Source: Candidatus Endobugula sp. (GTDB taxonomy: Bacteria > Pseudomonadota > Gammaproteobacteria > Pseudomonadales > Cellvibrionaceae). From it: DNA of 64,000 nucleotides. A model generated the notes under the pieces. It was given only the letters and a program-made list of their open reading frames with translations. It made no database searches and was not told the origin of the DNA. Of the stretch, positions 2,833 to 64,000 are shown piece after piece (position 1 is the stretch's first letter; the number at the start of each line of letters is the position of its first letter). Position numbers and translations under genes: made by a program. The stretch is from contig JAHDEM010000003.1 in assembly GCA_020628895.1 (NCBI GenBank), positions 17,748 to 81,747 of the forward strand, given 5' to 3'.

Positions 2833-4029
2833 CTATGTTTGTTTAAAAGGCAGCAACTGTTGTGCTTCTTTAATATAGTTTTCGATTTCTTTAGTCTCTT
2901 CAACTAAAAACCGTTGAATGGCGTGGCTGAATTCTGGGTGTTTAATCCAATGGCTGGAATAAGTTTTAATCGGCTTAAATCCGCGTTGTATTTTATGTTC
3001 ACCCTGAGCACCAGGGTCGAAGCGTTGAATATTATTTCGTATAGCATATTCAATGCCTTGGTAATAACACGCCTCAAAATGTAGGCTGTCGTAATTTTCT
3101 TTGCAGCCCCAATAACGTCCATAAAGTGTTTGGCTATCCTTAAAGAATAGCGCAGCGGCAACATTGTCTAACCCTTTTTCTGTTTGCGTGTGAGCTTGAA
3201 TCATAACAAGGTGAGGTGCCATTTTTTTTGCCAATAGAGGAAAAAAATCAGCCGATAAATAACCGGTATGGCCACTGCGTTTAATGTAAGTCGTCTGGTA
3301 AAAGAGATAAAAATTCTTCCAGTCTTTGTCATTGATTTGTTCGCCTTCCTTAACCGTTAACACAATATTTTGTGAGTGAACTTTTTTCCTTTCCTTAAGT
3401 ATATTTTTTCTTTTGCGTGAAGACATGGTGCTAAGAAAATCATCAAAATCTTTATATTGATTATTAAACCAATGATATTGATAACCCACTCTTTGCATCC
3501 AGCCGCAGGTTGAAAAGTAGTTTTTTTCATGATCTCTTATAAACAAACTATGACAGGAAGATGCATCGATTTCATTGGCTTTGTTAGCAATCGTTTGATG
3601 AATAAAGTCACAGAGTGCTTTCTCCATTTCCGGTGTTGAGATAATTGTTTGATCAATGGCCCAGCGTTGACCAGTTGCTGGTGTAAAAGGAATCGCATTT
3701 AATAACTTAGGGTAGTATTGCATTGCATGTCTTTGATAGGCATCTGCCCATGCCCAGTCAAATACATACTCCCCATAAGAGTGTGTTTTAAGAAAAAGAG
3801 GAACGATTGCCGCTATCTGATTTTCTTTGTTAGATTGATCGTCATTCTTTAATGTAACTAATAAATGATAGGGTTGCCATCCGGTCTCTAGTGTTGTGCT
3901 TTTGCTGTCTTCCATTACTGCAAAAAATTCGTGCATTAAAAAAGGGTAGTCTCCGCCACAAAGTGTATTCCAAATATTGGCATCACATTCATGAATTGAC
4001 GTTATAAAAGTGGCTGCAAAATTGTTCAG
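2833..4029 (-). CDS. FemAB-like (DUF482) GNAT-fold acyltransferase family protein
   Basis: Belongs to the PF04339/DUF482 peptidogalycan-biosynthesis-like family. Recognisable parts are ETGWQPYHLLV, a basic loop SSRKRKNILKERKKV, ARYWGC-like GRYWGCKENYDSLHFEACYYQGIEYAI and RFDPGAQGEHKIQRGF near the C-terminus. The ORF track starts at ATG 3936, but the family's conserved N-terminus is encoded upstream in the same open frame (SIHECDANIWNTL, GGDYPFLMHEFF). No ATG, GTG or TTG exists between the frame's stop and 3936. The best start is CTG at 4029-4027, preceded by GAGGAC (4041-4036), giving about 398 aa. Another option is the CTG overlapping the phoR stop as CTGA. The gene follows phoR on the same strand and is probably co-transcribed with it. 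Exact substrate unknown. Confidence 0.82.
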   Translation of the reverse strand: MNNFAATFITSIHECDANIWNTLCGGDYPFLMHEFFAVMEDSKSTTLETGWQPYHLLVTLKNDDQSNKENQIAAIVPLFLKTHSYGEYVFDWAWADAYQRHAMQYYPKLLNAIPFTPATGQRWAIDQTIISTPEMEKALCDFIHQTIANKANEIDASSCHSLFIRDHEKNYFSTCGWMQRVGYQYHWFNNQYKDFDDFLSTMSSRKRKNILKERKKVHSQNIVLTVKEGEQINDKDWKNFYLFYQTTYIKRSGHTGYLSADFFPLLAKKMAPHLVMIQAHTQTEKGLDNVAAALFFKDSQTLYGRYWGCKENYDSLHFEACYYQGIEYAIRNNIQRFDPGAQGEHKIQRGFKPIKTYSSHWIKHPEFSHAIQRFLVEETKEIENYIKEAQQLLPFKQT

Positions 4030-37490: not shown

Positions 37491-37496
37491 TAACTC

Positions 37497-37669
37497 AGCC
37501 CTAGAGTGTTTGCTAGTCATCTAGTCCTTGAGCCGATAATACAACCCTCGGAGGTTTCTCGCACAAGTTGGTGTGCATGTCCGCGCTGCGGAAAGCCTAA
37601 TGCTTGTCAGTGACCCCCACCTTGAACTTTACGGTTCAAGGCCCAATTGACGGCGGCACTTTTGGGGCG
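37497..37669 (+). ncRNA. ssrS: 6S RNA
   Basis: Lies between zapA and the 5-formyltetrahydrofolate cyclo-ligase gene, the conserved site of 6S RNA. Sequence landmarks shared with E. coli 6S RNA are CCTTGAGCCGATA, GGTTTCTCG, GTGTGCATG, CACCTTGAAC...GGTTCAAGG and GACGGCGGCA. The ends pair: 5' GCCCTAGAGTG with 3' CACTTTTGGGGC (with G-U pairs), forming the closing stem. About 173 nt. 6S RNA mimics an open promoter and sequesters sigma-70 polymerase in stationary phase; Rsd, which targets sigma-70 itself, is also in this window. Confidence 0.92.
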
Positions 37670-37723
37670 CTTTATATTTCTGATTGTCATTATCTTGCGC
37701 AAGTCCTGTCTCGGGAGAACCCT

Positions 37724-58704: not shown

Positions 58705-58918
58705 AATTGGCCTTGTAATGCAGTTGGGATTGGCTTGATTGTAGCGAGTTTATTCCTCTAAACAAAGCCATGGATGGCTAAAGCGAAAAATGATGTTTTA
58801 CGGATATCCACAATATTCATCTGGTAATCAGCATTTTTATAAAGCCAGTGATCTATTTTTTACGTAAAATGATACGCTTTGTATTTTGGCAATCAAAAAT
58901 ATCGATGGCAAATCAATT

Positions 58919-60001
58919 ATGAAATATATTGGACAAGCAGATTTTAATCACCAGCAGGCGCCTAAGATAGGGGTGTTGATCACCAATTTAGGTACACCTC
59001 AAGCACCCACTACTCCTGCATTACGTCGATATTTGGCGCAATTTTTATCCGACCCTCGAGTGGTGGAAGTGCCACGATTATTATGGGCCTGTATTTTACA
59101 TGGGGTTATTTTACGTATTCGTCCACGCCGTTCGGCTGCCGCTTATAAAACCGTATGGCAGCCAGAGGGTTCACCGTTAATGATCCACACCCAGCAGCAA
59201 AGTGATGCACTAGCCGTACGTTTGCGACGATTATACGGTGAGCAAGTGGTGGTTAAGTTTGCCATGCGCTATGGTGAGCCATCGGTCACATCGGTGATTG
59301 AATCTATGCAACGCGAAGGCGTTCGTCAGTTGCTAGTATTGCCCTTATACCCGCAATATTCTGCAGCAACAACGGCATCCACTTTTGATGCCTTAGCCGA
59401 AGATTTTACTCATCGTCGCTGGTTGCCCGATTTACGATTTATTAGTCATTACCATGATTACCCACCTTACATTACTGCGTTAGCCAACAGTATTAAAGCG
59501 CATTGGAAAGAGCATGGCCGTGCGGATAAATTAATTATGTCGTATCACGGAGTGCCATTACGTTATTTAAAAAATGGTGATCCTTATCACTGTGAATGTC
59601 ACAAAACATCACGATTACTGGCTGAATGTTTAGGCCTAACAAAAGAAGACTATATGACCACATTCCAATCACGTTTTGGTCGCGAAGAATGGTTAAAACC
59701 TTACACCGATCATACTTTACAGGCCCTTCCTGAGCAGGGCGTTAAATCTGTGCAAGTGGTTTGCCCCGGTTTCTCGGCCGATTGTTTAGAAACAATCGAA
59801 GAAATTGGTGAAGAAAATAGAGAGTATTTTATGGAAGCTGGGGGTGAGCGTTACGAATATATTCCCGCATTAAATGCAACTGATGAACATATCGATATGT
59901 TAGCTCAACTAGTGCAACAAAACTTACAGGGTTGGGATATGCCTGCGGCTGATGCGGGCCAGGATATGCACACCCATTATCAAAATCACAGCTCGTTGTG
60001 A
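58919..60001 (+). CDS. hemH: Ferrochelatase
   Basis: About 360 aa from ATG 58919; the tracked TTG 58886 adds 11 residues. It inserts iron into protoporphyrin IX, the last step of haem synthesis. Motifs are KIGVLITNLGTPQAPTTPALRRYLAQFLSDPRVVE, LLVLPLYPQYSAATTASTFD, LIMSYHGVPLRYLKNGDPYHCECHKTSRLLAE (catalytic His), TTFQSRFGREEWLKPYTD and VVCPGFSADCLETIEEIGEENRE. Confidence 0.95.
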   Translation: MKYIGQADFNHQQAPKIGVLITNLGTPQAPTTPALRRYLAQFLSDPRVVEVPRLLWACILHGVILRIRPRRSAAAYKTVWQPEGSPLMIHTQQQSDALAVRLRRLYGEQVVVKFAMRYGEPSVTSVIESMQREGVRQLLVLPLYPQYSAATTASTFDALAEDFTHRRWLPDLRFISHYHDYPPYITALANSIKAHWKEHGRADKLIMSYHGVPLRYLKNGDPYHCECHKTSRLLAECLGLTKEDYMTTFQSRFGREEWLKPYTDHTLQALPEQGVKSVQVVCPGFSADCLETIEEIGEENREYFMEAGGERYEYIPALNATDEHIDMLAQLVQQNLQGWDMPAADAGQDMHTHYQNHSSL

Positions 60002-60007
60002 TTGGTT

Positions 60008-60802
60008 CTATAAGGCAGGCTCTGCCTGCTTTAATACGGGTTTAAGCAATGCTAACCAGCCGCTAGCAAGTACATCGTATTGGATAATACAGCGTTCAGC
60101 TCTTTCATTATCAAACCTAGCTTGCTTTCTAATCGCTTGGTGTTTGTCTGGGTTGCTGCCGTAGATATGGCATAAGCGAGCATAGTAGCGCTGCCGATCT
60201 AAGCTATGTTCAGACCAATAATCTTCTTTACGTAAACGCATAATGGTGCGGCTATTGATATAAAATAAATCAGCAGCGCTATGAATAATATCCGCACCAT
60301 TATCAAAATATTGCAATAACAGTACATCGGCAAAACCATCGGCAGCGTCTTCTACCTTACCTAATACAGGTATTTGATACTGGCCAATCACCGCATGTCC
60401 CATTTCATGAAGAATGATATGAATGAGTGCATTACCAGTGAATACATCTATGTCAGACTTATTGTTATGGGGTATGCGCGCATTTTTATAACGTCGGCGA
60501 ATATCTTCAATAAATAAATAGGGTATTTCGATGCGGTGGTTCTCGTACCAGATCCTTTTGTATGACCCAAATGCTAAGGTGACATCGTATTTAAGCGCTA
60601 ATACATCATTTAAAAATGCCACCGTACTATTGACTGATGGTGAGTCAACCAGCCGTGAACGAATTTTTCTCTCTGCAGAACTATTTGGTGTTTCGAAGCT
60701 GATTTGCACCTTGGCGCTAGCGGGGGCAGCTAGTATAAGTGCGCTTAGTATTAGAGCTACCCATAAAACCCCCCAACGTCGATGACGAAATAGTACAACC
60801 AT
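60008..60802 (-). CDS. DUF4344-type putative exported metallopeptidase
   Basis: 264 aa. Signal peptide WGVLWVALILSALILAAPASA. The zinc site is HEMGH in LIHIILHEMGHAVIGQY, followed by GKVEDAADGFADVLLLQY, where an Asp/Glu would be the third ligand. This is the DUF4344 layout. Periplasmic location inferred; substrate unknown. Convergent with hemH (6 bp gap). Confidence 0.85.
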   Translation of the reverse strand: MVVLFRHRRWGVLWVALILSALILAAPASAKVQISFETPNSSAERKIRSRLVDSPSVNSTVAFLNDVLALKYDVTLAFGSYKRIWYENHRIEIPYLFIEDIRRRYKNARIPHNNKSDIDVFTGNALIHIILHEMGHAVIGQYQIPVLGKVEDAADGFADVLLLQYFDNGADIIHSAADLFYINSRTIMRLRKEDYWSEHSLDRQRYYARLCHIYGSNPDKHQAIRKQARFDNERAERCIIQYDVLASGWLALLKPVLKQAEPAL

Positions 60803-61497: not shown

Positions 61498-61884
61498 CCT
61501 ATAAAAATACTAAGTCATCCATCATCAGTCCTACTTTTGCATTTTTCCTTGGATGATGAGTTTTAGACAATTTGCTCTTGCTTTATGAAAAAATAACGTC
61601 AATAATAAGCTAAGTGACGTTTTTAAATACGTCGATATTAATCAGTGGAAGATGATAGTTTAAAAATAAAAGGGACTCCCGCCATTTATACTTTTCTCTT
61701 CTGTGGATATACGTCAAAGCTGCGTGTTTAAACACGTCTGTTTATTATTTAATGCATGTCAGATTATTCATTTTGCATTAAGGAGATATAAATGAAGGAT
61801 TTAAAAACGACGAATTATTTATTGTGCTCAAAATCGCCAAGGATTGCGAGCCTTATAACTTATAAAAATTAGAAGGATATTAAA
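61498..61884. other. Intergenic region with one possible 26-aa leader ORF
   Basis: 387 bp. CATCATC and GATGATG blocks (about 61518-61560) could form a weak stem. The only coding candidate is the 26-codon ORF at 61792. This gap separates the conserved chromosome from the accessory-looking right end. Confidence 0.5.
61792..61872 (+). CDS. Possible 26-aa ORF with strong ribosome-binding site
   Basis: MKDLKTTNYLLCSKSPRIAS ends shortly after with SLITYKN and stops at TAG. AAGGAG lies 7 bp before ATG, the best Shine-Dalgarno in this region. It ends 12 bp before the next gene. It could be a leader peptide or the stump of a decayed gene. Weakly supported. Confidence 0.25.
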   Translation: MKDLKTTNYLLCSKSPRIASLITYKN

Positions 61885-62184
61885 ATGAAAAAAATATTAA
61901 TGGGTGTAATGGTTTTATTCTTTGCTCAAAATAGTTTCGCTGACTGGATATATGATGAGGTAGTTGGATTTAGCGTTCATACCGATGGTGGTTTGTCAGT
62001 AGCTGTTCAAAATTCTCATGGTTGTGGCTCTACCATCTTGGGGGTCAATAACCCAGAAGGCGTCAATATAAATAGAATAATATCTGTATTGCTGGCATAT
62101 CAGGCACAAAATAAACCTTTACGTTTTGCAGTGCAGGGTTGTTCAGGTAACGTAGCTATTTTTGATAGAATTCAAACATATTAA
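61885..62184 (+). CDS. Small exported protein, 99 aa
   Basis: Signal peptide MKKILMGVMVLFFAQNSFA, cleaved before DWIYD. The mature part is about 80 aa with two Cys (HGCGSTI and QGCSGNVA) that could form a disulfide. Its pattern is VVGFSVHTDGGLSVAV, then INRIISVLLAYQAQNKPLRFAV. I know similar small secreted proteins from marine gammaproteobacteria but cannot name a function. The partial gene at the window end looks related. A Shine-Dalgarno GAAGGA precedes the ATG. Confidence 0.75.
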   Translation: MKKILMGVMVLFFAQNSFADWIYDEVVGFSVHTDGGLSVAVQNSHGCGSTILGVNNPEGVNINRIISVLLAYQAQNKPLRFAVQGCSGNVAIFDRIQTY

Positions 62185-62456
62185 AAATTGTAAGAATATT
62201 GCCAATATCTCGGAGTAGATAAACTATATGTCTGATTTTCTTGAGGTTTTATATTTCTTAATCACATATAAAAGCCATAATATAAATTTTATTCAAACTG
62301 AGATAAGAGATAATTCTTATCTCAGACGTAAAATATATGGGTAGTTGCTGTAAACTATTGAGTTTGATAGAGTTTGTGGGAAATGATTCGGGATTTGGTT
62401 GTGGATAAGTGAGATAAACAGGAATTCCGACTAATATACTGTTATGTTTGCTGAAA

Positions 62457-62975
62457 ATGGAAATACAATTAAACAAATCACAACTTATAGAATGGCTAGG
62501 GTCAGGGCTTTCTATAAGTATAATTTCATTATCGGTAATTTCTGATGTGAGGGAAGTACATTCTAATATTTCATCTCCCATTCAAGTCTATCAAGCCATC
62601 CAACAACACTCTTCATATTTTAAAGACGGCACATACCTAGTTAACTACGAAGAAACCGAGACAAATGAAGAGGAAATAGATTATTCAAATTATGCATATG
62701 CTTTTACACTTCTTGTAAAAATTACGAACGGCCCTATAACTGGCGGCTACCTTAAACTTAAAGAAGCACTTGCTAATTTTGAATATATTCAAGATGTTAA
62801 CCGTGAATCTTTTGGTTATTCTGGGTATTTCCTAGTAAGAACGCCTAGCGATCCATTAGAATACAAAAAACTTAGAGAAGTCTTAACTGCTCACTCTACA
62901 ATGTTCTCACTTCCAGAAAACGGAGCATCAGAGCATATATGTAATTTTATACAAGGCGGTGGTCTAGGTCTGTGA
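62457..62975 (+). CDS. Hypothetical protein, about 172 aa
   Basis: Not recognised. Start uncertain: ATG 62457 is used; the tracked TTG 62448 is three codons earlier. There is a hydrophobic stretch near residues 15-35 (GSGLSISIISLSVISDV), an acidic middle (ETETNEEEIDYSNYAYAF) and a C-terminal part with GYSGYFLVRTPSDPLEYKKLREVL. No signal peptide. Its stop codon is immediately followed by an attC-like site, so it could be the ORF of an integron gene cassette. Confidence 0.55.
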   Translation: MEIQLNKSQLIEWLGSGLSISIISLSVISDVREVHSNISSPIQVYQAIQQHSSYFKDGTYLVNYEETETNEEEIDYSNYAYAFTLLVKITNGPITGGYLKLKEALANFEYIQDVNRESFGYSGYFLVRTPSDPLEYKKLREVLTAHSTMFSLPENGASEHICNFIQGGGLGL

Positions 62976-63030
62976 ATATAACAAGGTTGTCAATCAGACG
63001 CCTTTTTCGTTGCTTACAACGGCGTTAGAA
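62976..63030 (+). other. attC-like integron recombination site
   Basis: Starts ATATAACAAGGTTGTCAATC and ends ACAACGGCGTTAGAA, 55 bp. R'' (ATATAAC) and R' (GTTAGAA) share the TAAC/GTTA core. L''-type GTTGT (62986-62990) pairs with ACAAC (63016-63020), each separated from its R box by 3 bases. The TAACAA...TCAA...GACGCC...TTCG...GCGTTAGA pattern parallels the aadA1 attC site. It begins right at the stop codon of one ORF, and the next ORF starts 5 bp after its end, as at a cassette junction. R boxes deviate by one base each from RYYYAAC/GTTRRRY. Confidence 0.6.
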
Positions 63031-63034
63031 TTTT

Positions 63035-63781
63035 ATGGAACATCCCGAAATTAAGAAGCTTTATAAGTATCGTGCGTTTAATGAATTCTCATTGAGAATG
63101 CTTGTGAATCGAGAAATGTGGGTTGCGAAACCGGCGAGCTTCAATGATCCCTTTGATTGCGCCTTAACTCCTGGAAGCCCGAAGACCACTGTTGATCAAT
63201 TGCATCAGATTAATAATCTTATTAGAGAGCTTTATGAACCAGAAGAAGCCGAGAAGCAAATTAGAGAGATTGTTGAGAGGAATCATCTTAAACCCGTCAA
63301 GGAAGTAGAAGATAAATCCATCGAAAAACATATGTTTGAAGCGAGAGAATCAGGTGTATTCTCATTAAGTGAAAAAAACAATGACATACTTATGTGGTCT
63401 CACTACGCGAACAACCATACAGGCTTTTGTATCGAATTTGAGAGAAAGGATATTAAGAGTAATTTTCTAAGCCATTTTATGTGTAGAAAGGTTGAATATA
63501 CTGTTGAGTATCCGAACCTACATCGGATCATAGATTTGCCAGATGTTAACTTATTTACTAAAGCTGACGGCTGGAAGTACGAGTCTGAATGGAGGCTTGT
63601 GACTAAACAAGGAAATACTACCCTACCTCTGCCAGCGCCAATTACAGCTATATACTTTGGTCTTCGCTCTAGCGATGACAGTATCAAAACAGTAAAGAAT
63701 ATCTTCTCAAAAGAACAAATCAAATTTTATAGAGCAAGCTGTAAACAAGGGGAGTTTGCAATTGAATTCATGGAAATCTAA
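63035..63781 (+). CDS. DUF2971 domain-containing protein
   Basis: 248 aa. DUF2971 layout: KLYKYRAFNEFSLRMLVNREMWVAKPASFNDPFDC at the N-terminus, GVFSLSEKNNDILMWSHYANNHTGFCIEFE in the middle, and KYESEWRLV near the C-terminus. No signal peptide. The family's biochemistry is unknown; members are common in accessory and mobile regions. It lies directly after the attC-like site. Confidence 0.9.
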   Translation: MEHPEIKKLYKYRAFNEFSLRMLVNREMWVAKPASFNDPFDCALTPGSPKTTVDQLHQINNLIRELYEPEEAEKQIREIVERNHLKPVKEVEDKSIEKHMFEARESGVFSLSEKNNDILMWSHYANNHTGFCIEFERKDIKSNFLSHFMCRKVEYTVEYPNLHRIIDLPDVNLFTKADGWKYESEWRLVTKQGNTTLPLPAPITAIYFGLRSSDDSIKTVKNIFSKEQIKFYRASCKQGEFAIEFMEI

Positions 63782-63835
63782 CAATTAAAGGGGTAGGCTC
63801 CTTTTCTATTAAAATTTTAATTAAAGGACTACATA

Positions 63836-64000
63836 ATGAAAATTTTTTTTCTTACTTTATTCATTACATCAATAATCTCGAACTACACATTCGCGGATCA
63901 ATATAAATCTTGTGTTGGCGAAATCACTGCTGTTGACGACATACTTCATGGTTATGCAAATGTTTCGGGTGGCTTGTTGTTGATAACCTTAAATAGTTCG
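63836..64000 (+). CDS. Small exported protein, N-terminal part (runs off window)
   Basis: 55 codons seen, open to the window end. Signal peptide MKIFFLTLFITSIISNYTFA, cleaved before DQYKSC. The mature start (CVGEITAVDDILHGYANVSGG then LLLITLNSS) resembles the layout of the 99-aa exported protein at 61885. AAAGGACT precedes the ATG. Too little is visible to name a family. Confidence 0.6.
   Translation, partial: MKIFFLTLFITSIISNYTFADQYKSCVGEITAVDDILHGYANVSGGLLLITLNSS

Follow-up and report, generated by a model that had tools for sequence, protein, structure and literature searches.

Integron integrases (IntI) bind the folded bottom strand of attC sites and recombine them at G^TT with attI or with another attC. 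Clusters of attC sites without an integron integrase (CALINs), for which an origin by degradation of integrons has been proposed, are listed by IntegronFinder 2.0 in its default setting when at least two attC sites are present (PMC9024848). The entry of cassettes at chromosomal attG sites has also been described (cited in PMC12901181). Searches of the integron literature under the names Microbulbifer and Cellvibrionaceae found nothing useful. Among the 144 genomes of the bacterial family that we compared, 113 matched intI at 1e-60 or better; neither the genome carrying the present locus nor its two congeners (G035 and G036) did so at that threshold. Here we describe a locus at the end of a 64,000-nucleotide stretch of DNA (the window, which is part of the 124-kb contig C55) that very probably represents a chromosomal integron cassette array seen at its proximal end, with a true attC site, a lost integrase and ongoing decay. 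Its features, in window coordinates, are as follows:

58886-60001, + strand: hemH (ferrochelatase), left chromosomal flank
60008-60802, - strand: DUF4344 gene, left flank of the block, adjoining hemH in G036 too
61556-61741, + strand: second, older leader of another attI-like type, before the small-protein ORF 61885-62184
62362-62447, + strand: leader with attI-like core at 62428-62447 (CGACTAATATACTGTTATGT), start of the array
62457-62975, + strand: ORF of cassette 1, 172 aa, without known family
62976-63030, + strand: attC of cassette 1, by R1 match and the letters of the site (R'' ATATAAC, 62976-62982; R' GTTAGAA, 63024-63030)
about 63025-63784: extent of cassette 2
63035-63781, + strand: DUF2971 gene, ORF of cassette 2 (Pfam, PADLOC)
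63776-63808, + strand: truncated attC of cassette 2, of which R'' ATCTAAC remains and the remainder is gone
63809-64000, + strand: start of cassette 3, small secreted-type protein, with a 95% copy on contig C61
63836-64174 in continued window numbering (L006:3584-3922), + strand: ORF of cassette 3, 112 aa

The initial annotation had pointed to an attC-like site at an ORF-ORF junction, and the TAAC/GTTA outer boxes, GTTGT/ACAAC inner boxes and GCGTTAG end that it listed are present in the 55-bp site, which on direct reading of 62976-63030 runs ATATAAC AAG GTTGT C AATCAG ... CTT ACAAC GGC GTTAGAA. The crossover is expected between G63024 and T63025, and the bottom strand is the strand expected to be recognised. 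The site begins directly after the stop codon of ORF 62457 (TGA, 62973-62975), and four bases, not the five originally counted, separate its end from the ATG at 63035. For the covariance search that had been proposed as a check, we built a model (R1) from 68 attC sites of intI-bearing relatives, drawn from arrays adjoining intI genes at nine loci in the same bacterial family and aligned with a 17-pair structure. The usable seeds came from a consensus scan, the first threshold of which passed over the window site, and R1 consequently leans to canonical sites. The seed alignment backs this structure well: 85.3% of cells pair, 290 cells are changed on both sides, and the covariation is a strong 0.591, where shuffles give 0.160 and sliding gives 0.143 or less. 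In a held-out control, all 39 of the R1 sites found at E-values up to 1 in ten loci lay on the strand expected from intI. R1 matches the window site at all model positions with 36.4 bits (E 3.9e-7 in the 145 kb searched, including the whole of C55; E 8.1e-6 in the whole genome, R1 E-values being rough), and this is the sole R1 match in those 145 kb and hence in C55. The AAC/GTT cores, the L''/L' boxes, the extrahelical base and the conserved structure are all present, and in shuffled windows zero copies of the site with three or fewer mismatches are expected. By sequence and model score, the stretch 62976-63030 is a genuine integron attC. Rfam at its gathering threshold reported nothing at these positions, and a 6S RNA (37495-37672, 94.8 bits) was all that it found in the window.

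The canonical hairpin makes up about 0.9% of the ensemble of this site, among the lowest of 47 family sites, and the best single-strand fold differs from the attC hairpin, as it might in a chance palindrome or a transcription terminator lying between unrelated genes. Such an origin is scarcely credible in view of the R1 score and of six further attC sites in the genome (of the seven R1 matches, C64 carries two, while C12, C61, C55, C20 and C87 have one each; C20 shows weaker ones in addition), and we dropped it on finding attC-bounded cassette homology in another genus (G122). R1 matches number seven and three in the two congeners, plus a few weak ones.

The attC match and this homology together bear out the earlier proposal that ORF 62457 closes one cassette and the DUF2971 gene opens the next. 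ORF 62457 had been called unrecognised; Pfam and NCBIfam searches indeed returned no match for it, and it has no relative among the other family genomes searched. The DUF2971 label of the gene after the site likewise stands (Pfam PF11185, E 2e-11), and its product further matches the PADLOC candidate defence family PDC-S31 (E 6.6e-77), by which similarity we name it a candidate phage-defence gene. Searches with the DUF2971 protein in the 144 family genomes recovered it at 94% identity in G122 (genus g25) and at 73% in G001 (genus g2); five further genomes have it at 26-34%. In both G122 and G001 the gene lies between attC sites, in the former within a row of six (R1 scores of 47.7 bits before the gene and 39.4 bits after it). 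Cassette 2 of the window and its G122 counterpart are identical at 713 of 765 bases: the identity starts in GGCGTTAGA, the shared 3' end of the upstream attC, and ends at ATCTAACAA, at the stop codon and just past the next R'' box, with background beyond. Set against 64% identity between the hemH genes of the two genomes, this sequence comparison suggests that the DUF2971 cassette most likely moved horizontally between genera. The attC of the same cassette is intact in G122, against which the truncation of the window copy (63776-63808, without R1 match) can be seen.

Cassette 3 has its copy on C61 (95% over 377 bp), with the homology between the two contigs running from the first T of GTTAGAA to 11 bases inside attC. 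The attC of the C61 copy (L076:124-213) is intact, scores 37.4 bits and folds well; the one after cassette 3 on C55 (L006:3923-4026) is different, 104 bp long and decayed, AAT standing in place of AAC and ATT in place of GTT. Two cassette ORF copies 95% alike are hence closed by unrelated attC sites. Taken with their counterparts in G122 and on C61, the DUF2971 unit and cassette 3 each have the make-up of a gene cassette, that is, an ORF plus attC in a unit ending at G^TT, and the window copies of both have had their own attC lost or mutated.

Further attC sites had been anticipated downstream; the block holds one clear attC only, the next ones being truncated or decayed. Searches of the block by R1 with filters off and by a relaxed matrix yielded one weak extra attC candidate only, the decayed second one, which scores 22.5 as against a maximum of 20.4 in background and shuffles. 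There is a single well-scoring attC in the block because the downstream sites have eroded. Past the window, the block codes for three GNAT acetyltransferases and two glyoxalase-type proteins amid small plus-strand ORFs, and no attC was found between these GNAT and glyoxalase-type genes. A run of 100 N, possibly an assembly gap, precedes a GNAT gene (L006:5466-5565). A short repeat (GGGACGGAGGAGTT...) occurs between genes of several array contigs (L006:5991-6044; L077:1956-2005 and 3450-3499; L075:18-50).

Whereas the initial annotation suggested the distal end of an array, an attI-like core (62428-62447) precedes cassette 1, about 530 bp upstream of the window attC, and the array end in the window is therefore very probably the proximal one. 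The crossover in this core is expected between G62441 and T62442. It resembles cores that relatives carry about 230-370 bp upstream of intI (e.g., TCTAATAAACTGTTATAA in G123), and when matrices of the relatives' cores were applied to 193 kb of contigs, the C61 site ranked first, the window site second and the C20 site seventh of about 386,000 positions. The leader is 81% identical over 83 bp (62362-62444) to that of the array on C20, with the identity stopping at ACTGTTA; the short core and its place point to a putative attI role for 62362-62447. The second leader (61556-61741) is 76% identical to a leader on C61 (L076:598-783), is of a type also present on C21 and C9, and is similar to what lies upstream of intI in G114. 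This type precedes small secreted-type genes at four places (including L104 ~1501-1614 and L106 ~1501-1561), and the proteins behind those four leaders are 14-21% alike, except for the C55/C61 pair. In G036 (L102 ~1518), a core identical to that of C61 (GACGTCTAATATAATGTTA) stands before a long ORF and beside a VIT-type transporter-like ORF, and no intI was found in that genome. The C20 array (L079 1-7816) also opens at an attI-like leader; it holds two further candidate defence genes in cassettes, adjoining attC sites: a ThsB-like TIR gene (PADLOC E 3.6e-68) and one of caspase type, PDC-S65.

These leaders bear on whether there was ever an integron here, or whether orphan cassettes were put into an ordinary chromosome at secondary, attG-type sites by a trans-acting integrase, for which there is the precedent cited above. 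The lack of intI in C55 and the scatter of attC sites over several contigs, both here and in the congeners, would agree with such insertions; however, the recipient leader is not unique, having 83 bp in common with the C20 array leader and a core like the attI of relatives, and we consider this origin quite unlikely. The attI-like sites (two on C55, one each on C20, C61, C21 and C9 and one in G036), each before cassette-like genes and with no adjacent intI seen, might alternatively have multiplied in this genus to form a dispersed integron served by one integrase in trans, now or ancestrally, which we hold to be unlikely. Two or more intI genes are present in many relatives, so the scattered sites could also be what several ancestral integrons left behind.

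The earlier remark that no intI is visible extends to the whole of contig C55, in which the arrangement of a complete integron, with intI beside attI, was not found. For intI, the assembly (89% complete) offers only a broken 3' fragment, located at the end of contig C44 (L009 1-463 and 1256-1299) and split by a MITE-like 268-bp insert with GGGCCTGTTCACACTAATT inverted ends; C55 carries a second copy of this insert (91% alike). Over its last 43 codons the fragment is 93% identical to the G007 integrase, and its last 44 bases recur (86% alike) past a Phd/PIN-like toxin-antitoxin pair. Given the 89% completeness, an intact intI may lie elsewhere, and the array might then belong to a larger, still complete integron with a working intI that was fragmented by the draft assembly; most attC-bearing contigs of this genome do have attC near a contig end, and most family members have intI. 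We nevertheless regard this as very unlikely, because both flanks of the block are ordinary chromosome within one 124-kb contig, the intI piece that was found is interrupted, and the two congeners, each listed as 100% complete, are without a full intI.

The decaying, integrase-less array of our preferred reading lies in a block bounded by hemH and the DUF4344 gene on the left and a GGDEF gene (L006:8604-10358) on the right. In the congener G035, only 2 bp separate hemH from the GGDEF gene, which makes this an empty locus; in G036, hemH and the DUF4344 gene are followed by other genes, and the GGDEF gene is on another contig near a transposase-like ORF. The same gene order in all relatives had been proposed at the outset as an argument against an array, and it fails because the order differs in these congeners.

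We infer past IntI action at the locus, by which an ancestral integron integrase would have joined cassettes between hemH and the GGDEF gene. Its partner for recombination at G^TT would have been either the attI-like site (62428-62447) or the attC of a cassette already in place, and the outcome would have been cassette 1, the DUF2971 cassette, the small-protein cassette and probably others past the end of the window. As the attC sites that follow are truncated or mutated in the core, the order of the cassettes is probably fixed as long as no integrase is provided in trans. The share of about 0.9% for the canonical fold and the damage to the next attC sites likewise suggest a relic array that by itself can move little or not at all, and we infer that it is immobile at present. 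The locus thereby documents integron decay, with the integrase lost and attC sites eroding, in a family where most genomes keep an integron, and one cassette of the decaying array, that of DUF2971, is still recognisable as a unit in other genera. Through its similarity to PDC-S31, the latter adds a candidate phage-defence gene to those travelling as cassettes. The several attI-like sites without intI are the sole departure from the common picture and raise the testable question of whether docking sites themselves spread.

Compared with the described systems, the array is like the attG sites (as cited in PMC12901181) in having chromosomal cassettes away from an integrase, and differs in its recipient, an attI-like leader present in more than one copy rather than unrelated chromosome. 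With the delta-attI-type cassettes of class 1 and class 2 integrons it shares putatively attI-derived sequence by cassettes away from intI; however, there a short piece of attI replaces attC behind the ORF, whereas here a longer leader stands before the cassette (PMC12901181). The sedentary chromosomal integrons of the same family (G122, G005 and G068) resemble it in attC architecture, the DUF2971 cassette and a core similar to its attI-like one, but they possess intI, and their arrays are long and made up of intact attC sites, in contrast to the decaying attC sites and missing intI of the window array. Like a CALIN, it combines attC and cassettes with no intI nearby, and it differs from one in the attI-like site at its start and in having one well-scoring attC only. 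The suggestion of a CALIN in the initial annotation thus holds as to the lack of intI and as to a decayed member of that kind, but with its one clear attC, the other sites having decayed, the locus falls below the default of IntegronFinder 2.0 (PMC9024848) and so goes unlisted there. It is best classed, on this evidence, as an integron array of the CALIN kind, integrase-less and decaying.
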